Assembly: GCA_001567505.1 (NCBI GenBank)
Contig: LLEU01000040.1
Location: forward strand, 1-64,000
DNA length: 64,000 bases
Direction: 5' to 3'
From: Acidobacteria bacterium OLB17
GTDB lineage: Bacteria; Acidobacteriota; Blastocatellia; Pyrinomonadales; Pyrinomonadaceae
Shown here piece after piece: positions 50,190-63,958 of this stretch (the first letter of the stretch is position 1; each line of letters begins with the position of its first letter). Position numbers and translations under genes: made by a program. Below the pieces are notes generated by a model. It was given only the letters and a program-made list of their open reading frames with translations, had not been told where the DNA came from and made no database searches.

Positions 50190-50340
50190 GATACACTCAA
50201 AGTTTGCGAGCCGAAAGGCAATTGAAAATTTGACATCAACTTGCAGATGAATCGGGGAAGCGGGTGAAAGTCCTGCACGATCGCGTCACCGTTAAAGTCG
50301 GGCCACCGGAACTGCAAGCTGCTGCCTATTTAGGATGTTC
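50190..50340 (+). ncRNA. cobalamin riboswitch upstream of btuF
   Basis: The core GGGGAAGCGGGTGAAAGTCC (50248-50267) matches the cobalamin-riboswitch consensus, followed by a region ending in GTCACCGTTAAAGTCGG (50284-50300), like the family GC(C)ACTGT(A)A box. Boundaries are approximate. Helical arms at the 5' end (GCCGAAAGGC at 50208-50217) support structure. It lies in the 275-bp leader ahead of btuF (start 50423) and should repress when B12 is abundant. Confidence 0.8.
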
Positions 50341-50422
50341 GCGAAAAAACATCGTAGGCCGGCACGGGTTACATCACACGACCGCCCCTGTTCACCTCGA
50401 GAGTTTTTTCGCTCCCGAAGGA

Positions 50423-51355
50423 ATGAAACAGGTGCGGCCTTTTTATTTGAATTTGTTTGCGGCGTTTGCGGTGAGTCTTTTGCTGCTTGCTGCGAACGCG
50501 TGCGCTCCACGGCCGGCCGCAGATGCGGACGCCGGTACGGACACACGGGTCATCAGAGACGCTCTCGGTCGCGATGTCGTCATCCCGCGGGATGTTCGTC
50601 GCGTGGTCAGCCTTGCTCCTAATCTTACTGAGATGATCTTTGCCGTCGGAGGCGGCTCGAAACTCGTCGGCGACACGACCTACTGCGACTTTCCCGCCGC
50701 AGCAAACGACGTGCAGAAGATCGGCGATACGATGAACCCGAATATGGAGGCGATCATCGCTCTTCATCCGGATGTCGTGCTTATCTCGACAGCATCACAG
50801 ATCGAGGCGTTCATGCGGACGCTTGCCGAACGCAACATCGCCGTTTATGTCATTGACGCTCGATCGGTCGAAGAGGTCCTGAACGGTATGCTCACCGTCG
50901 GCGAGATCGTCGGCACGAGGCCCGAGGCCGAGAAGGCCGTATCTGCCCTTCGCGAACGCCTCGCAAATGTGCGTTCCGGGGTCGATGGCGAGAAGAAGAT
51001 GCGGGTCTTCGTTCAGATCTCGAAGGAACCGCTTTTCACCGCCGGCCGCGACGCCTATCTGAACGAGGCGGTCGAGATCGCCGGCGGCCTCTCCGTTACG
51101 AGCGACGTTCCCGGAGCCTACCCGAATCTCAGCCGCGAGACGGCGTTAAAGCTCGACCCCGAAGCGATCGTCATCTCGGATAACGAAGGCAATCACGAAC
51201 CGAATTCCGCTTTCGCGAATTCCGCAGCGGTCAGGAGCGGGAAGATTTTTCGCGTGGATGCCGACCTGCTTGCGCGTCCCGGCCCGCGACTCGTTGATGC
51301 GATCGAGATACTTGCCCGCGACCTTCACCCGCAACCGCAGGTTCAAAATAGATGA
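50423..51355 (+). CDS. btuF: cobalamin ABC transporter substrate-binding lipoprotein
   Basis: Periplasmic binding protein that presents B12 to BtuCD. The signal ends in lipobox LLLLAANACAPR. The fold follows the helical-backbone metal/cobalamin receptor type: RRVVSLAPNLTEMIFAVGGG (starting near residue 60), DVVLISTASQIEAFMRTLAE, and SVEEVLNGMLTVGEIVGTRP. ATG 50423 has GAAGGAA upstream and makes the signal; the frame open from 50264 overlaps the riboswitch and is rejected. The stop overlaps the btuC start (ATGA). It could carry another metal-chelate, but the riboswitch favours B12. Confidence 0.88.
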   Translation: MKQVRPFYLNLFAAFAVSLLLLAANACAPRPAADADAGTDTRVIRDALGRDVVIPRDVRRVVSLAPNLTEMIFAVGGGSKLVGDTTYCDFPAAANDVQKIGDTMNPNMEAIIALHPDVVLISTASQIEAFMRTLAERNIAVYVIDARSVEEVLNGMLTVGEIVGTRPEAEKAVSALRERLANVRSGVDGEKKMRVFVQISKEPLFTAGRDAYLNEAVEIAGGLSVTSDVPGAYPNLSRETALKLDPEAIVISDNEGNHEPNSAFANSAAVRSGKIFRVDADLLARPGPRLVDAIEILARDLHPQPQVQNR

Positions 51356-52302
51356 AACGCGCCGCAAAGATCGCCGTGATCTTGCTTGTCGTGCTTGCGG
51401 CGGCTATCGCGGCGGCGCTTTCGTTCGGTGCGGAATGGGCTTCGCCATTTTCCGCGAACGCGGGCGAAAAGGCGATCTTTTTCGACATACGGCTGCCGAG
51501 AGTCCTGCTCGGAGCGTGCGTCGGTGCGAGTCTTGCGGTCGCGGGTGCGGCACTGCAGGCGTTGCTTCGCAATCCGCTCGCCGAGCCTTACTTACTTGGC
51601 GTCTCGAACGGAGCGGCATTGGGGACGATGCTCGCTTTCGTTGTGTTCGGCAACTACATTCTAGCGAGGCCGCTGCTCGCGTTTGCCGGTGCGGCGGCCG
51701 CATCGGTCGTTGTTTACAGCCTTGCGAGAACGCGTGCGGGGATGAACGTCGAACGGCTGGTGCTTTCGGGCGTGATCGTGACGACGTTCCTTTCGTCGGT
51801 GATCATTATGCTCACCACGCTGCTTGATGCCGCACGGCTGCGGAGCTTTACGTTCTGGCTGCTTGGAGACCTCTCGCAGGCGACCTGGAGCGGCGTCTAT
51901 TTGAGGTTTGGCGCGATGATCGCGGCGACGCTCGTCCTGGCGTCGCAGTCGCGGGCACTGAACCTGATGATGCTCGGCGAACGCGACGCGGTCGATTTCG
52001 GCGTCGAGACGGGACGCGTGCGGCTGCTGGTCTTTGGCGCATCGAGTTTGGTCGTCGGGGCGGCGGTCGCAGCGAGCGGTTCGGTCGGATATGTCGGGTT
52101 GATCGTGCCGCATCTTTTGCGGCTCGCGTTCGGGAGCGACAACCGCATTGTCGTGCCGATGTCGGCGATCGCGGGTGCGGCGTTCGTCGTGCTTGCCGAC
52201 CTTGCGGCAAGGGTCGCGATCGCACCGCGTGAACTACCCGTCGGTGCCGTCACCGCATTGCTCGGTGCGCCGCTCTTTATCTATCTGCTGAGGAAGAACT
52301 GA
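51352..52302 (+). CDS. btuC: cobalamin ABC transporter permease (FecCD family)
   Basis: Membrane permease of the BtuC/FecCD family, 316 residues and about ten helices. Signature segments are IFFDIRLPRVLLGACVGASL, GAALQALLRNPLAEPYLLGV and SGSVGYVGLIVPHLLRLAFG (the ABC-facing coupling helix). It overlaps btuF and btuD by a few bases, so the three are coupled. Confidence 0.93.
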   Translation: MKRAAKIAVILLVVLAAAIAAALSFGAEWASPFSANAGEKAIFFDIRLPRVLLGACVGASLAVAGAALQALLRNPLAEPYLLGVSNGAALGTMLAFVVFGNYILARPLLAFAGAAAASVVVYSLARTRAGMNVERLVLSGVIVTTFLSSVIIMLTTLLDAARLRSFTFWLLGDLSQATWSGVYLRFGAMIAATLVLASQSRALNLMMLGERDAVDFGVETGRVRLLVFGASSLVVGAAVAASGSVGYVGLIVPHLLRLAFGSDNRIVVPMSAIAGAAFVVLADLAARVAIAPRELPVGAVTALLGAPLFIYLLRKN

Positions 52303-53072
52303 TGCTTGAGGCCCGCAATATTTCCGTCAAATACGGCGACGCGGCCGTGCTCGCTGATGCGAGCCTGCTTCTTTCGGCGGGCAGGATAACAGCGATCGTC
52401 GGAGCGAACGGCGCCGGCAAGACCACGCTCATCAAAGCCCTGAACGGTTCCGTGCCGATCGGAGCGGGCGAGATCCTGCTCGACGGCCACTCGCTTTCGA
52501 CGCTTTCGCGGGCCGCGATCGCACGGAAGGTCGCTGTCGTCGCTCAGGAGACGGAATCGAGATTCCCCGTAACGGTGCGCGAGTTCGTCCTGACGGGAAG
52601 GTTCGCCTACGGCAGTTCTTTCGGTTGGGAATCGCCTGACGATCTGGAGGCCGCCGAACGTGCACTTGAGGATTGCCGGCTTGAGAATTTCGCCGGGCGA
52701 CTGATGAACAGTCTTTCGGGCGGCGAGCGGCAGCGTGTCGTCCTCGCACGGGCCCTCGCAGGCGAAGGCCGCGTTCTTCTTCTTGATGAACCGACCGCGA
52801 ATCTCGACCTCGCGCATCAGACACTGATGTTCCGACTCGTCCGCGAGCGGTGCGAGCAGCGAGATTATTCCGCAGCGATCATCACTCACGACCTGAATCT
52901 TGCGGCGGAGTTCGCCGATGAGGTCGTGATGCTCGCGGCGGGCAAGATCGTGTACAAAGGCACGCCGCAAGAGGTCTTAACGAGAGACAACATTCGCGAG
53001 ATCTTTAATGTCGAGGTGATGCTCGACACGAATCCGTCAAGCGGGAAGGCCCGCGTGACGCAGCTTTATTGA
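52302..53072 (+). CDS. btuD: cobalamin ABC transporter ATP-binding protein
   Basis: ATPase of the BtuCDF importer, 256 residues. Walker A is VGANGAGKTTLIKAL, the Q-loop is VVAQETESRFP, the signature NSLSGGERQRVVLA, Walker B RVLLLDEPTANLD and the H-loop AIITHDLNLAAE. It starts at the overlap TGATG with btuC. The second cobalamin riboswitch begins within ten bases after its stop. Confidence 0.93.
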   Translation: MLEARNISVKYGDAAVLADASLLLSAGRITAIVGANGAGKTTLIKALNGSVPIGAGEILLDGHSLSTLSRAAIARKVAVVAQETESRFPVTVREFVLTGRFAYGSSFGWESPDDLEAAERALEDCRLENFAGRLMNSLSGGERQRVVLARALAGEGRVLLLDEPTANLDLAHQTLMFRLVRERCEQRDYSAAIITHDLNLAAEFADEVVMLAAGKIVYKGTPQEVLTRDNIREIFNVEVMLDTNPSSGKARVTQLY

Positions 53073-53077
53073 CAACA

Positions 53078-53205
53078 ACGTTGGCTGTTCAAGGCGAAGG
53101 AAGTTCGGTGTGAATCCGACGCTGCCCACGCAACCGTGAAAGTCGGGAACTTTGCTTTGATCGGGCCTTGGCAATTTGAACGATCCCCTGCGTGGATGCA
53201 GGGTC
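53078..53205 (+). ncRNA. cobalamin riboswitch upstream of btuB
   Basis: The core GAAGGAAGTTCGGTGTGAAT and then CCGACGCTGCCCACGCAACC (53096-53135) matches the cobalamin-riboswitch consensus closely (GGAA-N4-GGTG-N-AA-TCC, then CGCAAC). AAAGTCGGGAACTTTG follows. Boundaries are approximate. A hairpin CCCTGC/GCAGGG (53186-53191 with 53198-53203) lies directly before the btuB ribosome site GGAGG (53206-53210) and is a candidate expression platform. Confidence 0.87.
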
Positions 53206-53214
53206 GGAGGAAAA

Positions 53215-55590
53215 ATGAAACTCTATTACCTTTTCTTTTTATTGTTCGCCGCGACGCTTTCGGTCTCGGCACAGCAGAGCGGCCGCATCGAAGGCACGAT
53301 CATACTGCCGGCAAACACCGCTTCAACGATCGCGGGCGAAGGCGTAACGATACGGCTTCACTCACGGAAGACGAACGCTCCCGTACGCGAGGCGACGCCG
53401 GATGCGAACGGGAAGTTCACGTTCAGCGGCGTTCTCGCAGGAGACTATACGATCTCGGTCGAATGCGGGCGTTGTGTTCGTTCGGGTTCAGGAACGAGCA
53501 TTTCCGTCGAGGCGAACGGCACGTCGGCGATCACGATCGAGCTTCCGCTTGCCCGCATCAACGAGACAGTTAACGTCGCGGCCGATACCGCACAGCCGCT
53601 TGAGAATGTGTCGAAGAGCGTTAGCGTGATCGGCGGCCAGGAAATGCGCGACCGTGCGGATTTTACGCTTGTCGAAAGCCTTCGGTCGCTGCCTGGGCTT
53701 CGCATACAGCAGCTTGGCGGCTTCGGGCGAACGGCCTCGATCAAGGCACGCGGCCTGCGAAATCAGGACACTGCCCTTCTGATCGACGGCGTCAGATTTC
53801 GTGATCCGGCCTCGATCTCCGGCGATGCAACGCCGTTCCTGAGTGACCTTACGCTTACGAGTGTCAGCCGCGTCGAAGTGCTGCGAGGTTCGGGCTCGTC
53901 GCTTTACGGGACGAACGCGATCGGCGGGGTGATAAGTTTCGAGACGCCTTCCGCACGAAGGGGAACGCACGGGCAAGTGAGCGGCAATTTCGGCGGTATG
54001 GGTTTTGGTCGATTTCGCGGGACGCTGTCGCGCGGGACCAGTGACGGCAAATACGGCTTTGGCGGCGGCTTTTCGCGAACCGCGTACACGAAGGGCATCG
54101 ACGGCGACGACAATGCCGACAACACGAACCTGCAGATGCGCACCGACCTTCGCCCGACGAAAAAGACCACGATCTCTGCGGCATTCTTTTTCTCCGATGC
54201 AAAGGCACGGCTGAATGTCGGGCCTGATGCTGCCGGGACCTTGCCCGCTACGAACGACGTTATCATCGACGCTCAGCCGTTCGTGAACTTTACGCCAGAT
54301 GTCGATGATCCGGATGCGTTTCAAAGATCACGGTTCTTTTCGGGCCACGCGAACGTCACTCAGCAGCTCGGAAAGTCAGTTGTCCTTTCGGGCTATTATC
54401 ACCTAGTTGACACGCGGAGGAGGAATGACGACGGCTTGCTCGGGCCGGGATTTCAGAGCGAATCGACGAGCATCTTTACCGGCCGCATCGACACCGTGAA
54501 TGCAAAACTGACGTGGGCGGCGAACGGTTCGAACACGATCACGGGCGGCTACGAATTCGAACGCGAACGCTTCGGCAACGAAGGCATTACGCCTTCGGGC
54601 ACGGGCGACTTCTTTACGCGTGCAGATCAGTCGAGCGACACGATCTTCGTTCAGGCGATCTCGCAGCCGCTCGGTGGAGCATTACAGTTGACGGGCGGCG
54701 TCCGCTACCAGCGATACAGGCTCGGGCAGCCGACGTTCAGCCTGAATAATTCCCCATTTCAGGGTGCAACGCTCGCTTCGCCCGCGGGAGCTTTCACGCT
54801 CGACGGAGCGATCTCGTACTACGTCGCCCGCACGAAGACAAAGCTCCGGGCACACGTCGGTAACGGCTATCGAGTGCCCTCGCTTTACGAGCGTTTCGGG
54901 ACGTTCTATTCGACGTGGCCGAGCGCTTCGTTCGTCGCATTGGGCGATCCCGAGCTGAAGCCCGAGAGGTCGATCGGTTACGACATCGGCATCGACCAGC
55001 AGGCCTTCGGTGACCGACTCAAGCTCTCTGCGTCGTACTTCTGGACGCGGTTGACCGACATCATCGGATTCGGCAGCGTTGTGCCCGACATCGGCACGAC
55101 GCCGAGGCCGTTCGGCGGTTACGAGAATCAAAAGGGCGGCCGCTCTTCGGGGTTCGAGGGCAGCCTGACGGCGAGGCCTACGCGCACGACGAGCATCTTC
55201 GCTTCCTACACGCTTACCGACAGCCGGAATCGGATCTCGCCTGTTGCGGGCAGCGGCGTACTGAGAGCCTTCGGCGTGCCGAGGCATCAATTCACGATGG
55301 TCGCGACGCAGAATTTCGGACGATTTTGGGTGAATTTCGATCTGCTGGCAACGAGCGACTATCTTGCGCCGATCTTCAGCAACTCGACATTCTCGACGTA
55401 CGTTTATCGCTTTGACGGCAATCGCAAGGGCGATCTGACGGCGGGATATACGTTCAAGCTGCACCGTGAGGACTCGATGAAACTCCGTCTTTACGGCACG
55501 ATCGAGAATGTCTTCGACAACGAATACTACGAGAACGGCTTTCGCACGGCCGCAAGGACCGGCCGGATCGGCCTGACGTTCGGCTTCTAG
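53215..55590 (+). CDS. btuB: TonB-dependent outer-membrane receptor, cobalamin (BtuB-like)
   Basis: Outer-membrane receptor of 791 residues. A signal peptide (ending near VSAQQSG) is followed by a carboxypeptidase-regulatory-like domain (about 22-115), then the plug (GGQEMRDRADFTLVESLRSL, QDTALLIDGVRFRDPAS, VEVLRGSGSSLYGTNAIGGV), then a barrel ending in the usual aromatic residue (GRIGLTFGF). ATG 53215 follows GGAGGAAAAA. Substrate assignment to B12 rests on the riboswitch and the adjacent btuFCD, not on receptor sequence. Confidence 0.93.
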   Translation: MKLYYLFFLLFAATLSVSAQQSGRIEGTIILPANTASTIAGEGVTIRLHSRKTNAPVREATPDANGKFTFSGVLAGDYTISVECGRCVRSGSGTSISVEANGTSAITIELPLARINETVNVAADTAQPLENVSKSVSVIGGQEMRDRADFTLVESLRSLPGLRIQQLGGFGRTASIKARGLRNQDTALLIDGVRFRDPASISGDATPFLSDLTLTSVSRVEVLRGSGSSLYGTNAIGGVISFETPSARRGTHGQVSGNFGGMGFGRFRGTLSRGTSDGKYGFGGGFSRTAYTKGIDGDDNADNTNLQMRTDLRPTKKTTISAAFFFSDAKARLNVGPDAAGTLPATNDVIIDAQPFVNFTPDVDDPDAFQRSRFFSGHANVTQQLGKSVVLSGYYHLVDTRRRNDDGLLGPGFQSESTSIFTGRIDTVNAKLTWAANGSNTITGGYEFERERFGNEGITPSGTGDFFTRADQSSDTIFVQAISQPLGGALQLTGGVRYQRYRLGQPTFSLNNSPFQGATLASPAGAFTLDGAISYYVARTKTKLRAHVGNGYRVPSLYERFGTFYSTWPSASFVALGDPELKPERSIGYDIGIDQQAFGDRLKLSASYFWTRLTDIIGFGSVVPDIGTTPRPFGGYENQKGGRSSGFEGSLTARPTRTTSIFASYTLTDSRNRISPVAGSGVLRAFGVPRHQFTMVATQNFGRFWVNFDLLATSDYLAPIFSNSTFSTYVYRFDGNRKGDLTAGYTFKLHREDSMKLRLYGTIENVFDNEYYENGFRTAARTGRIGLTFGF

Positions 55591-57670: not shown

Positions 57671-58393
57671 ATGGGAACAGACCTTCAAGGTAAAGTTGCC
57701 GTCATCACGGGCGGTACAAAGGGCATCGGCCTCGGCATCGCGGAAGCGCTCGTGCGGGCCGGTGCGAAGGTGTTCGTCTGTGGCCGATCTAAGACGGACG
57801 TAAGAGCGGCGGTCGCAGGCCTTTCCGAGTTCGGTGACGCCGCGGGCGAGACCTGCGATGTTCGAAGCGAAGACCAGGTGCGGCAGATGCTCGAGGAGGC
57901 CGTGCGTGTCTTTGGCGGTGTCGATATTCTGGTCAATAGTGCGGGCGTTGGGTTCAACGGAACGACGGTCGAGGAAACGAGCGGCGACGTCTTTCGGCAG
58001 ACGCTTGAGACGAATCTCTTTGGGACATTCTACGCTTGCCATTACGCGATCCCGCTCCTAAAGCAACGCGGAGGCGGCTACATCATCAATATTTCCTCAC
58101 TGATGGGACAGTACGCGCATGCGAAGGCCGCGGCTTACAATGCGTCAAAATTCGGCGTCAACGGCTTTACTGAGGCGTTGATGCAGGAAGTTCGCAGCGA
58201 CAATATCAAAGTAACGGGAATTTGTCCCGGAAGCGTCAATACCTATTTCGGCGGCGACACGCCTTCGGAGGAAAAGGCTTGGCAGCTGCAGCCGGAAGAT
58301 CTCGGCGCTGTCGTACTTGATCTGTTCGCGATGGATGCGCGTGCCCTGCCGAGCAGGATCGAACTGCGTCCGAGCAAACCTCCCGCAAAATAA
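57671..58393 (+). CDS. short-chain dehydrogenase/reductase (SDR)
   Basis: A 240-residue NAD(P)-dependent oxidoreductase. It has the Rossmann glycine motif TGGTKGIGLGIAEAL (residues about 14-28), the NNAG-like DILVNSAGVGF (Ser in place of one Asn), and a catalytic Ser-Tyr-x-x-x-Lys set (INISSLMGQYAHAKAAAYNASK). Substrate is unknown; the class includes 3-oxoacyl-ACP reductases. ATG 57671 is immediately after the gatB stop, so the two are probably co-transcribed. It converges on the CheA-like gene. Confidence 0.9.
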   Translation: MGTDLQGKVAVITGGTKGIGLGIAEALVRAGAKVFVCGRSKTDVRAAVAGLSEFGDAAGETCDVRSEDQVRQMLEEAVRVFGGVDILVNSAGVGFNGTTVEETSGDVFRQTLETNLFGTFYACHYAIPLLKQRGGGYIINISSLMGQYAHAKAAAYNASKFGVNGFTEALMQEVRSDNIKVTGICPGSVNTYFGGDTPSEEKAWQLQPEDLGAVVLDLFAMDARALPSRIELRPSKPPAK

Positions 58394-58409: not shown

Positions 58410-60470
58410 CTAGTTCAACGTGACAGTAAGTTCCTTAAGATTCTCGACGTTCAAGGGCTTTACGAAATAGTAGGACGCGCCGAGTTCGGCCGCTCGCAGC
58501 CGATGGTCGTCCGTGTCGAGCGAGGTCACGAGAGCGACCGGTATCGTGGCAAGTTCCTCGGAACCGCAGATCGTTTCAAGAAGCTGCCATCCATCCATCC
58601 TCGGCATCTCGACATCCGAAAGGATCAGATCAGGCCGCCACGACCCCGAGAGCAGGACCTCTAGGGCCTCGACGCCGTCCTTTGCGGTGATCGTTCGAAA
58701 GCCGGCGTTCTCGACGAGCGTCGTATTGTGCTTTCGGATGCTGGCGCTGTCATCAACGATAAGGACGAGCGGCGCTGAACTCTTATCTTGGACAGGCTTC
58801 TCGGCCTTGTGCGGAGACGCGCCGTTGCCGATCGGAACACGCAGCACGAAGCGTGTGCCCTTCAACGGCTCTGACATCACTTCGACCGAGCCTTCAAGAT
58901 TCTCGACACTTTCTTTTACGATCGACATTCCGACACCGCGGCCCGCATTTAGGCTGACCTTTTCGGAGGTCGTAAGGCCTTGTGCAAAGATAAGCTGCTG
59001 AGCCTCCGTTTCAGAGAGTTTTGCAGCGTCCTCGTACGATAAAACACCGTTCTTCACCGCACGCTGCTTCAGCGTCTCGGCAAGAATGCCGCGTCCGTCA
59101 TCTTCGACCGAGATGAGGACAACGCCGTCCGCAGAACGCACCTTCACCGTGATGCTGCCCTTTTCTCGTTTGCCGACAAGGCGTCGCTGGTCGGGCGGTT
59201 CGATGCCGTGGACGACCGAATTTCGCAGCAGATGCAGGAGCGGCTCGACCAACGCGTCGATGAGGAGGGTGTCGATCTCGACATCGCCGTTCTCGATCGT
59301 CAAGGCGGCAAGTTTGTCTTCTTCTTCGCAGGTTACGTGAACGGCTCGGTTGAGCCGCGTCTCAAGTGTTCCGAAACGCTGCATACGCACGCGGCGAAGG
59401 TTGTCCACCAACGCGCCCGTGATCGTGTGTGCGTTAAGGATCGCCTCGGAAAGTAGGTCCGAATCGTTGGCAGAGCTGTTTGCCCGAAGGTCGGCGATCG
59501 CGGACTCTAGGATCTCATTGTTTGCGGCAAGCTTTGTGGCGAGACGGATGAGATCGTCGAGACGTTCGAGCGAAACACGAACGATAGGCGAATGGATCTT
59601 TCTGTCCGGCTTGCGGAACGGCGAGACGGTACGTGGTGCGGCCTTTTGCCTATCGGAAGTTTCGTCAAGGGCGGCTATCGCAGCCGAGAAACGCTCGCCG
59701 AGGTCTGTCATCGCGTCGCCCGTGCTGTGCGTGCCGACGACCGAACCGAGCTGATTCAAGGCGTCGTAAAGCAGGTCGATCGTTGCGGCGTCAGGCGCAC
59801 GATCCTTCTCGACGAGTTTGTCGAGCAGGTCTTCCATCTGATGCGCGAGTTTCGAAGCCTGTTTTTGCCCGACGACTCCCGCGGCTCCCTTGAAGGTGTG
59901 CGCGCTGCGGCGGATATCCCAGAGGGCCGATTGGGCTTCCGCACCGGATTGGAGGCGGGCGAGATCATTCGCGATCTGAGAAAGGAGATCGGTCGCCTCG
60001 GAGCGGAAGATGTCGAGGGTCTCTTCGTCGATCCCGAATTCTTCTTCGACCCAGGCGGACGAAAAATCGTCGTCCTCAGCTTCTTTTGGGGCCTGCGGGG
60101 CGATCTGATCGAAAGAAGCGTCGAGAAAGCCCGCGACGTCATCGACAAGCCCACCTGAGAGCAGCGGCATCTCGAGAAGCGTGGATTCGATCTTCGCGAC
60201 GAGATCGAGGATCTGATAGACGTCGTTCGTCGAAGCGGCTCCGGTCAGGAAAAGTTTATCGAGGGCTTCCTCACATTCGACGATCGCGGTGGTGACACCA
60301 TCGAAGCCGCCCTCGGCCGTTTGAGCTTTCAGTTCACGGAGCGCACGCGCGGCAACGGCCAAGTTGCTTATTTCGCCGCCCGTTTGGCCGACGACAAGCA
60401 AGCTTGACCGTGCAAGTGAGATCTGCCTTTCGGCAGTTTCGAGGAAAGTTTGTAGGTTGAAAGATTCCAT
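58410..60470 (-). CDS. CheA-like hybrid histidine kinase without CheW domain
   Basis: A 686-residue two-component kinase. Hpt domain with phospho-His in RRSAHTFKGAAGVVG (residue about 188), dimerisation helices (about 310-350), CheA-type ATPase (LLHLLRNSVVHGIEPPDQR, VSVEDDGRGI-like VLISVEDDGRGIL, NAGRGVGMSIVKESVENL), and a C-terminal receiver (LVLIVDDSASIRKHN, phospho-Asp in ILSDVEMPRMDGWQL). A CheW-like domain normally lies between ATPase and receiver but is not seen. The region after the first 100 residues has an extra helical part. It is downstream of the TPR/receiver gene by 64 bases, probably one transcript. Confidence 0.9.
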   Translation of the reverse strand: MESFNLQTFLETAERQISLARSSLLVVGQTGGEISNLAVAARALRELKAQTAEGGFDGVTTAIVECEEALDKLFLTGAASTNDVYQILDLVAKIESTLLEMPLLSGGLVDDVAGFLDASFDQIAPQAPKEAEDDDFSSAWVEEEFGIDEETLDIFRSEATDLLSQIANDLARLQSGAEAQSALWDIRRSAHTFKGAAGVVGQKQASKLAHQMEDLLDKLVEKDRAPDAATIDLLYDALNQLGSVVGTHSTGDAMTDLGERFSAAIAALDETSDRQKAAPRTVSPFRKPDRKIHSPIVRVSLERLDDLIRLATKLAANNEILESAIADLRANSSANDSDLLSEAILNAHTITGALVDNLRRVRMQRFGTLETRLNRAVHVTCEEEDKLAALTIENGDVEIDTLLIDALVEPLLHLLRNSVVHGIEPPDQRRLVGKREKGSITVKVRSADGVVLISVEDDGRGILAETLKQRAVKNGVLSYEDAAKLSETEAQQLIFAQGLTTSEKVSLNAGRGVGMSIVKESVENLEGSVEVMSEPLKGTRFVLRVPIGNGASPHKAEKPVQDKSSAPLVLIVDDSASIRKHNTTLVENAGFRTITAKDGVEALEVLLSGSWRPDLILSDVEMPRMDGWQLLETICGSEELATIPVALVTSLDTDDHRLRAAELGASYYFVKPLNVENLKELTVTLN

Positions 60471-60534: not shown

Positions 60535-62781
60535 TCATTCTACAACAGGTTGCGACGGCTGCGTCAGATAAGTGTCGAGAGCCTTCATTAGCGTCTCGGG
60601 GCCGAACGGCTTGGTGATGTAGCCGGTGCATCCGGACATCTTGCCGCGAACCTTATCGAAGAAGCCGTCCTTGCCCGAGATCATCACGACCGGCACGTCT
60701 TTCGCCGTTTCATGAGCCCGGATCATCTTACAGACCTGATAGCCGTCCATCCTGGGCATCGTGATGTCGAGAAGGACGAGTTCGGGAGTGAAATTGTCTA
60801 TCGCCTCCATCGCTTCGACGCCGTCGGCCGCGCAGATCACGGTGTGGCCGTGTTTCTCAAGCTTATTCGAGATAAGCTTGCGGACGGTCGCACTGTCATC
60901 AACGACGAGGATCGAGCAGCCCTTGGACTGTGCTTCGACCGACGCTTCGCGTCGGTGTATCTCGTCGAGCCGGATCGCAAGGGAGTTTACCTGCGAAACG
61001 AGGATCACGTTGTCAGGGTCGAGCCTCGCGGCTTCCTGCAGATAGCGAAGGCCGCGATCGAAGTTCTTCAGGTTAAGGTGGCCGATACCAAGATCGGAGA
61101 GTTCGCGAGATGTGAATTCACGCGTGTTCCAGGATGCCTCCATCTCGACGACGGCATCGTGGATCCGTTCTAGATCGCCCGTGCTGCTGGCAAGGAGCGC
61201 GTCGATGTCGTCAAGCGACAGGATCGCACGGCAGTCCTTGCAGGAGAAGGCCTGCGGGGCGGCCTCTGCGGCACAATACGGACATTCGTATTCGGGCACC
61301 GATGAGATCAAAGGTGCGCTGACGGTTTCGTGAATTGCAGCCTCGGCGGCGAGTTCTTCGGCGGACCTAACCGCTTCAACCGGTTCCTCAGAGAACCTTT
61401 CGTCGTATGCCTTGAGAAAATCTTCGACGCCGGTTGCGGAACCATCCTCAGCCGGGAAATCGATCACGGTGCTTTCGAGCACCTTGTCGCTTTCCTCAAA
61501 GAGTGGGCTTTCCGGCTGTTCCACTTTTCGATCCTCGGCTAGATCATTGAATGGCGAACCGTCAGGTTCACCAGCGAGGCCAACTGCGTTCACCTTCTCA
61601 GCCTCGTCATCGGACGAGATATGGATCTCACCGTCGAAATGGGGCTCGACCTCTTCGATCGGATCGAGAACGTCGGCCTTTGCATTCGCCTCCAGCTCGG
61701 CAAGAACTGCGGCCATTATCATTGGATCGACCTCAGGCTCGCCCGCCGGTATGTATTCGGGTGCGGGCTCGACCTTCGCTTCTTCGCCGAAATACGGCGG
61801 ATCGAGACGTGTTTCAAGTCCGGTCGGCGCCGGACGCGGATCCTCAAGCGGGATGTCGGTTGGCATCGCGATCGCATCAACATCGTCGCTGGCTTCGGCT
61901 TCGATATCTTCGACGGCGCTTGGTGCATCGATCGCAACCTCCTCAACGGGAGGTTGTTCGACGATCGCGGGCTTTACGGCAGCGGCCAACGCCATAAGAA
62001 AGTCGCGGCCGGCGGACGCGAATTCGTTCGAAGGGTCGAGGCTGAGGACGCGCTCATAGCAAAGCAGTTTTTCTTCGATGCTCGAAGAGATGTGGGAACG
62101 GAGCGTCCAGGCCGAAACGCTCGTAAGATTGTCCTCAAGGAACTCGTCGAGCTGATTCAAAGCTTCGTACCAGTTGCCGTCGGCAACGGTTCTCTGCACA
62201 GCAAGATAGCGCTTCTCGATGCGGGCGTCTTCGATCGAGGCGAGGGCGGAGCGAGCATCGTCGTTGTCGGGGTTGATCTCAAGGACGCGATTCAAGGATT
62301 CGACGACGATCGATTCATCTTCCGCGATCGAGGCGCGCCAGAACCATGCCATCTCGCTGTTATTGTCGTGTTCGATGGCCTTGTCAAAACACTCCATAGC
62401 GAGTTCGTTGCTGCCTTCGTCTTTGGCGGCCACTCCGCGATGTACGAAGTTCTTGGCGATGAGCGAACACGTCGAAGCGTGCCAATCAATGGCGCGTTGG
62501 TTCGAAGGGTCACATTCGAGGACCTTGTTGAGAAACACGAGCAGTTCCTCGGGATATTCGCTGATCGAGGCGAGCCACATCCATGCGTCAGAATTTGCAG
62601 GATCTTTGTCAGTAGCCTCGGTAAGAAGAATGCGGGCGCGGGCGCGGTCGCCTGCTTGGGCGGCTGCAACGCCTTCGGCGACAAGAGAGCGAAGGTCGGC
62701 TGCGTAGGCTGCGGCTGGAGCAGATTCGCTGACAAGCGCTTCTGCCGGAGTGTGGGCGGACGGTTCTATTTTGAGTCTCAT
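60535..62781 (-). CDS. TPR-zinc ribbon-receiver response regulator
   Basis: A 748-residue protein. N-terminal TPR repeats (residues about 25-250; RARILLTEATDKDPANSDAW, ALNQLDEFLEDNLTSVSAWT), a long acidic low-complexity middle (about 255-485), a zinc ribbon (YECPYCAAEAAPQAFSCKDC near 497-515), another TPR-like pair (about 540-610) and a receiver domain with CSILVVDDSATVRKLISNKL and phospho-Asp in LVLLDITMPRMDGYQVC. No DNA-binding output domain is seen, so it probably acts by protein contacts, as PilG/PilH-type regulators do. ATG at 62781 is used; the frame is open to 62835. It lies just upstream of the CheA-like kinase. Confidence 0.88.
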   Translation of the reverse strand: MRLKIEPSAHTPAEALVSESAPAAAYAADLRSLVAEGVAAAQAGDRARARILLTEATDKDPANSDAWMWLASISEYPEELLVFLNKVLECDPSNQRAIDWHASTCSLIAKNFVHRGVAAKDEGSNELAMECFDKAIEHDNNSEMAWFWRASIAEDESIVVESLNRVLEINPDNDDARSALASIEDARIEKRYLAVQRTVADGNWYEALNQLDEFLEDNLTSVSAWTLRSHISSSIEEKLLCYERVLSLDPSNEFASAGRDFLMALAAAVKPAIVEQPPVEEVAIDAPSAVEDIEAEASDDVDAIAMPTDIPLEDPRPAPTGLETRLDPPYFGEEAKVEPAPEYIPAGEPEVDPMIMAAVLAELEANAKADVLDPIEEVEPHFDGEIHISSDDEAEKVNAVGLAGEPDGSPFNDLAEDRKVEQPESPLFEESDKVLESTVIDFPAEDGSATGVEDFLKAYDERFSEEPVEAVRSAEELAAEAAIHETVSAPLISSVPEYECPYCAAEAAPQAFSCKDCRAILSLDDIDALLASSTGDLERIHDAVVEMEASWNTREFTSRELSDLGIGHLNLKNFDRGLRYLQEAARLDPDNVILVSQVNSLAIRLDEIHRREASVEAQSKGCSILVVDDSATVRKLISNKLEKHGHTVICAADGVEAMEAIDNFTPELVLLDITMPRMDGYQVCKMIRAHETAKDVPVVMISGKDGFFDKVRGKMSGCTGYITKPFGPETLMKALDTYLTQPSQPVVE

Positions 62782-63002
62782 AGGTCGGTTCTTAAGGCTG
62801 TTTTTATGAATTCGCGAATGCAAGAGGGCCACCAAGACAGGCTGCGCCCATTAAGACACTACTGCGATAAGCAACTCTAATGCCACCAACAGCGAGAAGA
62901 AGAGAACGGAAGAAACTGTACGGTAAATCGTGTAAAATATTGGATATAGCGGACTTAAGGCGAAATGGTATTCGAGCGAGGTTTTATTACATCGAGCATT
63001 TT

Positions 63003-63034: not shown

Positions 63035-63958
63035 ATGGATATCGGGACGACTCAGAAGAATGTGATCATCATCGGCGGCGGGCCTGCGGGCCTTGCGGCC
63101 TCGATCTGGTGCAGCGACCTGGGGATCTCGCATCTTCTGCTCGAACAGGAGCTGCGAACCGGCGGCCAGCTTCATAAGATATTCCAGCCGATCCCGAACT
63201 ATCCGGGGATACTAACTATAGACGGGGCGAGCTTCGCAGAAACTCTTGCCGAACAAGCAAAAAGTCTCGGCGGCACGCTCCGCACCCATGCCCCGGCCGC
63301 GACGATCGACGGGACCGCAATGGAGGTTCGTCTTGCAACCGGCGAGAAATATGCCCCAAAGGCTATTATCCTCGCGACCGGCGTTCGAAGGCGGCGGCTT
63401 GGGCTACCCGGCGAAGCGGATCTCTCGGGCGTGCTCGAATCGGGCTCGAAACAGGCCGCGGAAACGAAAGGCGCCCGCGTGGCGATCGTCGGAGGCGGCG
63501 ACGCGGCATTCGAGAACGCACTTATCCTCGCAAAGTATGCGTCGGAAGTTACTCTGATACATCACTCTTCGCGGTTCCGTTCGAGAGCGGAGTTTACGGA
63601 GCCGGTAAGCCGCGATCCGAAGATCAGAATGCTGAAAGACTCCGTTGTGAAGGAGATCGTTAGCGAGAACGGGCAGGTGCGGGGCCTCTTGCTTGAGCGA
63701 AACGGCGCCGCTGAGCGGATCGATGTTGACTTTCTGCTTGTGAGGATCGGGGTCGTGCCGAATTCAGAATTGGTAAAGGATCTTGCGGAGCTTGATGCCA
63801 AAAACTACGTCGTGATCGATGCTCACTGCGAGACGACATTGCGAAATGTCTTCGCCATCGGTGATGTCGCTACACCGATTTCGCCTACGATCTCGACCGC
63901 TGTCGGCCAAGCCGCGACCGCGGTGAAGGTCATCAAGGAACGATTTTCTCGTTCCTAA
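63035..63958 (+). CDS. thioredoxin-reductase-like FAD/NAD(P) oxidoreductase without CxxC
   Basis: A 307-residue flavoprotein of the low-molecular-weight thioredoxin reductase fold. FAD motif VIIIGGGPAGLAASIW (residues about 11-26), NAD(P) motif VAIVGGGDAAFENAL (about 150-165), and C-terminal FAD motif NVFAIGDVATP. The redox-active CxxC that thioredoxin reductase carries between these (CATC) is absent: the segment reads GEADLSGVLESGSKQAAETK. It therefore resembles TrxR-like ferredoxin-NADP reductases, and its electron acceptor is not determined. The start is ATG 63035; TTG 63026 is an alternative. Confidence 0.88.
   Translation: MDIGTTQKNVIIIGGGPAGLAASIWCSDLGISHLLLEQELRTGGQLHKIFQPIPNYPGILTIDGASFAETLAEQAKSLGGTLRTHAPAATIDGTAMEVRLATGEKYAPKAIILATGVRRRRLGLPGEADLSGVLESGSKQAAETKGARVAIVGGGDAAFENALILAKYASEVTLIHHSSRFRSRAEFTEPVSRDPKIRMLKDSVVKEIVSENGQVRGLLLERNGAAERIDVDFLLVRIGVVPNSELVKDLAELDAKNYVVIDAHCETTLRNVFAIGDVATPISPTISTAVGQAATAVKVIKERFSRS

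Follow-up and report, generated by a model that had tools for sequence, protein, structure and literature searches.

We report here a response regulator (RR) and an adjacent CheA-derived kinase, encoded in the window (the 64,000-nt stretch of Acidobacteria bacterium OLB17 analysed here, contig LLEU01000040.1, positions 1 to 64,000), as the two ends of a chemosensory operon whose middle has been lost. The RR joins TPRs, an acidic linker, a Cys motif and a receiver in one protein, and its operon descends from a complete, receptor-containing one. Neither CheW nor MCP is found in the assemblies of the reduced form, the kinase has lost P5 and most of the length of P3, and the pair is under strong constraint. 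On this basis, it is probable that the RR is the PilG-position output of a Tfp/Pil-Chp-like operon stripped to kinase and RR, working as a soluble, array-independent phosphorelay whose likeliest target would be the type IVa pilus machinery. The features are listed in Table 1.

Table 1 Features of the RR operon and of its borders in the window
Feature	Position	Strand	Remarks
RR gene	60535..62781	-	748 aa: TPR block, disordered acidic linker, predicted zinc ribbon, TPR, receiver
RR N-terminal helical-repeat block, residues 21-269	61975..62721	-	pLDDT about 95-98 from residue 31 to 270
RR acidic disordered linker, residues 275-493	61303..61959	-	length and sequence vary across the genus
RR predicted zinc ribbon, Cys500/503/514/517	61222..61293	-	39/39 covering genus members; invariant in 44 aligned rows
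RR second TPR block, residues 537-617	60931..61173	-	Pfam, AlphaFold
RR receiver, residues 622-740	60562..60918	-	D628, D629, phospho-acceptor D672, S702, K724
CheA-derived kinase without P5, 686 aa	58410..60470	-	N-terminal helical bundle, Hpt/P1 (His191), shortened P3, P4 ATPase, receiver (Asp619)
P5 (CheW-like) place	58767..58829	-	21-aa linker in the window kinase
Thioredoxin-reductase-like flavoprotein (TrxR-like)	63035..63958	+	divergent; conserved left border; not counted in the pathway
Short-chain dehydrogenase (SDR)	57671..58393	+	frequent right border; name from sequence reading; not counted in the pathway

The RR reading frame opens with an ATG at 62781 and its stop codon ends at 60535. 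Because M1 is kept in at least 90% of 44 aligned RR relatives, this ATG is favoured over the competing upstream TTG at 62835. Pfam matches comprise several TPR models at about residues 35-190, one TPR at 560-591 and Response_reg at 624-735 (E 1.7e-27), and no DNA-binding domain was found in the RR by this search. In the predicted structure, we read residues 21-269 as a triplet of TPR-like modules, each about 79 aa long; TPR superhelices top the Foldseek list for this block, with low TM-scores (0.25-0.28 by target). The linker that follows (269-494, 226 aa) contains 27% Asp/Glu and 5% Lys/Arg, and its AlphaFold pLDDT is mostly below 50. Three short linker motifs are nearly restricted to the closest relatives of the window, being present in 6, 7 and 4 of 39 linkers, and linkers seem longer in full systems (mean 316 versus 246 aa, with kinship ignored and a rougher cut in which some rows include TPR sequence).

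The four cysteines after the linker are scored below threshold by Zn_ribbon_3 (residues 497-517, E 0.38, 10.7 bits against a Pfam cut-off of 27). Despite this score, the conserved motif is a predicted zinc ribbon, with the two CxxC knuckles of such a fold, and the pattern CxxC-x10-CxxC recurs in all 53 ORFs of two RR clusters from outside the window. The receiver is intact as judged by its residues, with D628, D629 and D672 in 40/40 genus RRs, and S702 and K724 in all 39 where the region is covered. AlphaFold, given the alignment of 44 relatives, assigns pLDDT values mostly above 85 to ribbon, second TPR and receiver, while the pTM of the whole model is 0.42 and the arrangement of the blocks relative to each other is not predicted. 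Sequence and fold searches of the PDB with the RR return generic receivers and TPRs among the best 60 and best 50 rows. A receiver that retains its phosphorylation residues and is not joined to a DNA-binding domain gives the RR a PilG-like anatomy. An earlier note on this DNA had described the TPRs, an acidic linker of about 230 residues, the four-Cys ribbon and the C-terminal receiver, all of which are supported by Pfam, conservation and AlphaFold; its further claim that the protein lacks a DNA-binding output agrees with the Pfam result.

The earlier note had also linked the RR to a CheA-like kinase, and this link holds: the kinase gene lies 64 nt downstream on the same strand. In 34 of 40 genus loci, the RR and the ORF called after it share a strand, and that ORF begins -44 to +67 nt from the RR stop. 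Judging from this gene arrangement, RR and kinase are very likely co-transcribed. Pfam identifies Hpt, P4 and receiver in the window kinase, P3 (PF02895) reaches 20.3 bits against a cut-off of 23, and no CheW/P5 match was found in the protein by Pfam. The kinase model, built from 16 sequences (mean pLDDT 77.7), has helices at 301-330 and 335-362 as a candidate P3 hairpin; dimerisation is less sure since P3 falls below its cut-off. Its best Foldseek match is the P3P4 fragment of Thermotoga CheA (4xiv_A, E 4e-17). The kinase carries the Hpt histidine of P1, His191, which is the predicted phosphotransfer site, and the N, G1, F and G2 boxes of P4. What it lacks is P5, the domain that couples CheA to CheW and receptors.

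An alignment of 37 genus kinases, in which the short kinase of G024 ends with its contig ahead of the P5 place, separates two kinds. The P5 place spans 148-157 aa in 16 long kinases versus 16-33 aa in 20 short ones. The G012 kinase (759 aa; also L014), labelled as nearest to the long kinases, is likewise without P5. Median P3 length is 148.5 aa in long and 66 aa in short kinases (short maximum 122, in G012), and the linker ahead of Hpt shrinks from 27.5 to 17 aa and the one from Hpt to P3 from 74.5 to 52 aa, whereas P1 (98), P4 (185) and REC (118 aa) have equal medians in both kinds, with segments measured in 19 of 21 short kinases. The N-terminal bundle is kept in both as well (medians 126 and 125 aa). 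All short kinases covering the Hpt histidine have it (20/20), and the residues of the N, G1, F and G2 boxes are kept in 21/21; the F-box Phe is absent from three of the 16 long kinases. For the short kinase, we rejected a CheA damaged by frameshift or otherwise broken, given the conserved residues and the lack of internal stops in the listed matches. The short kinase descends from CheA and, from its residues, probably keeps the phosphate chemistry. Strictly defined, neither term applies: the kinase falls outside CheA, and the pair outside the chemosensory systems.

Of 41 genomes of the genus, 16 carry the full system, 21 RR and kinase, three RR without kinase, and one neither. The full state is RR-CheW-MCP1-MCP2-long CheA, in some genomes split over contigs. 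CheW (PF01584) is matched 32 times in 16 genomes, exactly twice in each, and one match per genome falls inside a frame of 885-1134 codons, as expected for CheA P5. MCPsignal (PF00015) exceeds its cut-off in the same 16, and custom CheW and MCP2 profiles made from the genus and its relatives return the same 16 again. In the other 25 genomes, that of the window among them, neither CheW nor MCP exceeds the family cut-off anywhere in the assembly; a single sub-threshold MCP match was seen in G006 (99-codon frame, E 7e-4). The four core chemosensory proteins (chemoreceptor, CheA, CheW and CheY) are all present in the 16 full relatives and not all in the window genome, where just the ends of the order RR(-CheY)-CheW-MCP-CheA, RR and kinase, are left; relatives and outgroups show the whole order.

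These absences come from profile searches of draft assemblies. Since the window's own assembly is 89.7% complete, its case, in which neither Pfam nor custom profiles found CheW or MCP, leans on the relatives and on the intact chromosomal slot. Assembly gaps were rejected as the cause because four profiles give the same 16/25 split and near-closed genomes are among the 25, including ones that are 98% complete in 2, 7 and 8 contigs. Genome reduction was likewise rejected, as genome sizes overlap by eye. The TrxR-like gene stands at the back of the RR in all 37 genus loci that reach that far, and beyond the operon lie mostly SDR/GatB, in full and reduced genomes alike. Two of the RR-only genomes, G001 and G018, have the SDR directly adjoining the RR in the place of the kinase, and in the third, G036, the right side is rearranged; G036 and G018 are 87-89% complete, which makes the absence of their kinase less sure. 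For G014, neither RR nor kinase was found at the thresholds used. The TrxR-like gene itself scores well below the TIGR01292 cut-off, and its dN/dS lies above that of the kinase in all nine pairs with both measured.

Two further observations concern the full systems. MCP1 is divergent and MCP2 matches better: MCP1 falls below the MCPsignal cut-off in L034 (9033-10658), G008, G019, G031 and G035, and above it in, for example, G023 and G005. CheR (PF01739) exceeds its cut-off in just 5/41 genus genomes, a difference from Pil-Chp, and three strong matches lie off the RR contigs (G012:C25:9164, G015:C259:1792 and G062:C354:6370). No CheR over cut-off was found in 14 of the 16 full genomes, and most full systems seem to be without a methylation-based adaptation enzyme.

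The direction of change is given by sister genera. All six sister-genus loci carry the TrxR-like gene, RR, MCP1, a second MCP and a long kinase, with the SDR beyond in four, so that the full operon is ancestral and the reduced form a loss. CheW is labelled in four of the six, the other two having an unlabelled or overlapping ORF there; P5 was checked by Pfam in one (G344), and in G352 and G251 the RR profile match stops short of the ribbon. In the RR tree, 20 short genomes form one clade (92/83), and G012 groups with full genomes (87/65). The flank-gene tree, a quick search in which seven rows are 30% filled, places G012 likewise with an SH-aLRT of 97. Because of these two groupings and the long P3 of G012, two losses in the genus are likely, though by the AU test on the RR tree a single loss shared by the 21 short genomes was not rejected (p 0.17). 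On the flank tree, G001/G018 and G036 appear to have lost the kinase separately, and one clade of the three RR-only genomes was not rejected on the RR tree (AU test, p 0.488).

We propose a mechanistic model for the pair. The ancestral RR-CheW-MCP1-MCP2-CheA operon encoded an ordinary receptor-controlled pathway. In the clade of the window, CheW and both MCPs were lost, and CheA dropped P5 together with most of its elongated P3 hairpin but retained P1, P4 and its receiver. The remaining kinase would autophosphorylate on His191 independently of an array, and the phosphate would pass to Asp672 of the RR and to the kinase's own receiver, which could serve as a sink or brake. Phosphorylation of the RR would alter the partner grip of the ribbon-TPR core and, via the acidic tether, of the N-terminal TPR block, and the RR would act by protein contacts, with the type IVa pilus machinery as its likeliest partner. 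Candidate inputs to the kinase are constitutive activity, a partner at the N-terminal bundle, or the TPRs of the RR. As the window genome holds 13 further receiver-like matches, other kinases could also act on the RR.

Where the input comes from leaves room for a related possibility, namely that a non-MCP protein, membrane or cytoplasmic, has replaced the receptors and acts, for example, through the N-terminal bundle or the RR TPRs. This reading specifies the proposed phosphorelay rather than opposing it, and it is a real possibility that still falls short of being probable. It would fit the retention of the N-terminal bundle in both kinase kinds and the RR N-terminal block, which the model shows as well ordered and which is under constraint. 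Against it, the receptor-less loci show no additional conserved gene on either side of the kinase, towards the RR or towards the SDR, save for unlabelled ORFs at these places in a few of them.

The output side of the phosphorelay can be approached through gene order. In Pseudomonas aeruginosa, the Pil-Chp genes run PilG-PilH-PilI-PilJ-ChpA. The outgroup operons resemble this order, starting with the output RR and continuing with CheY, CheW, MCP and a CheA with Hpt and C-terminal receiver. The RR differs from PilG in its added TPR, linker, ribbon and TPR, and the window genome differs from Pil-Chp in having no MCP, CheW or P5 matches. For the RR, which the earlier note proposed as a candidate signalling hub, the context supports the role of output RR at the PilG position of a chemosensory operon of Tfp type. 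The window kinase shares with the CheA family P1, P4 and a putative P3-like hairpin, has a C-terminal REC like Tfp CheAs, and differs from the family in lacking P5.

The earlier note had called the architecture unusual, and this does not hold up. The RR was found in 40/41 genomes of the genus at E<=1e-35, G014 being the missing one, which also led us to reject an architecture unique to this genome. A core form with ribbon, TPR and receiver (about 340-415 aa in most) occurs in Bryobacteraceae, Blastocatellia, other Acidobacteriota and Chloroflexota groups; in one of them, L047, two TPR matches and a receiver flank the Cys motif by Pfam. The core RR is often first in outgroup operons of RR, CheY, CheW, MCP and CheA (with C-terminal receiver), whose domains were checked on samples; further examples are G380, G038 and G049. 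Across the phylum, at least 33 of 396 genomes match the core profile at E<=1e-45, a lower bound with six candidates scored per genome; 25 of the 33 match from the ribbon onward and eight in the receiver or TPR-receiver part only. A DUF4388-type gene stands between core RR and CheY in L046, L051, L052, G380 and G038, with the domain confirmed in L051.

A pilus target for the RR is probable by analogy with PilG: according to a review (PMC12632253), PilB and FimX become delocalised when PilG is lost or is no longer phosphorylated. The window genome encodes PilB and PilT over their NCBIfam cut-offs and a PilC homologue below its cut-off, all in one cluster. At its N-terminus, the PilB (G000:C57, L192:8835-10673) has a motif for c-di-GMP binding of the MshE type (NF053729, 65.2 bits, cut-off 38). 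The pair might instead serve another function of the ACF type, such as biofilm or development, which we regard as possible but on balance unlikely. This would agree with the lack of any recognised pilus gene within or next to the operon in the genus, sister-genus and outgroup loci, and with the finding that genomes without the kinase, or without both RR and kinase, still have T2SSE ATPases. Since these ATPases occur in 41/41 genus genomes whatever the operon state, they are uninformative on the pilus link. The gene order, by contrast, fits Pil-Chp, and the Hpt and C-terminal REC of the CheA, with no P2 match, are as described for Tfp CheAs in a passage of PMC10782961. In addition, the equal-best plasmid matches of the receiver include a protein with the automatic name PilG, at 44.9% identity, or 41% in a separate alignment; this is a plasmid protein, outside a chemosensory operon by annotation, and not a chromosomal PilG.

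A rival reading takes the reduced pair as a decaying remnant. If the receptors were gone and kinase and RR were on their way out, the RR-only and empty genomes would be the end state, in line with the ladder of 16, 21, three and one genomes among the 41 and with the RR-only pair G001/G018, whose receiver dN is 0.229 versus 0.087 for GatB. Such decay is quite improbable: the two-gene form is kept in 21 of 25 receptor-less genomes with catalytic residues intact, 20 of these 21 form one clade, and the RR-only genomes sit among full ones in the trees instead of at the tip of the short clade. Five receptor-less pairs give kinase dN/dS values of 0.050-0.086 and four full-system pairs 0.096-0.105, where the P5 and longer P3 of the long kinases may raise the values. 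For the RR receiver, pairwise dN/dS is 0.007-0.029 in the receptor-less pairs versus 0.023-0.081 in three measurable full-system pairs. These values are rough because dS is high in most pairs and pairs share genomes. By this measure, receptor loss did not relax the kinase-RR pair. Relaxation of the receiver is confined to the one pair without a kinase, and kinase loss may have relaxed it there.

The preferred reading, a receptor-less phosphorelay, departs from current descriptions of chemosensory systems. Passages of PMC10782961 state that every system contains chemoreceptors, CheA, CheW and CheY, and describe CheA as having no sensor of its own and relying on chemoreceptors, with P5 as a core domain. 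The CheW domain is reported there in 100% of 13,673 surveyed CheAs and counted as core. In the same passages, archaeal sequences were gathered by their CheW domain and CheA was recognised by HATPase_c plus CheW, so that P5-less kinases could escape the survey. Surveys that recognise CheA in this way are blind to such kinases. No report of a receptor-less, P5-less CheA was present among the literature matches listed in full-text searches, which covered few subscription papers and preprints. A kinase and switch retained without receptors run counter to the rule that kinases of this kind need a receptor array to work.

Response regulators of the FrzS/RomR type in Myxococcus also join a receiver to a non-DNA-binding extension and control type IV pili or polarity. 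The RR described here is like them in joining a receiver to a non-DNA-binding extension; FrzS and RomR are not known to have a zinc ribbon or TPR.

A more far-reaching version of the model can be offered tentatively. CheA may have been freed from arrays into an ordinary soluble two-component kinase twice in the genus, via loss of receptors, CheW and P5, and the TPR/ribbon RR may itself be a sensing scaffold by which the kinase is both loaded and gated, so that input and output would reside on one protein. The genus offers a natural series of full, receptor-less, regulator-only and empty states, mostly at one chromosomal slot, for which the sister genera supply the starting state. With this series, CheA signalling without an array, the question of which CheA parts serve the array alone, and the way in which a multi-protein sensory system is dismantled in evolution all become testable. 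Elsewhere in the window, ORFs at 50264-55590 on the plus strand resemble, by their order and sequence, an ABC uptake system (binding protein, permease and ATPase) followed by a TonB-dependent receptor.
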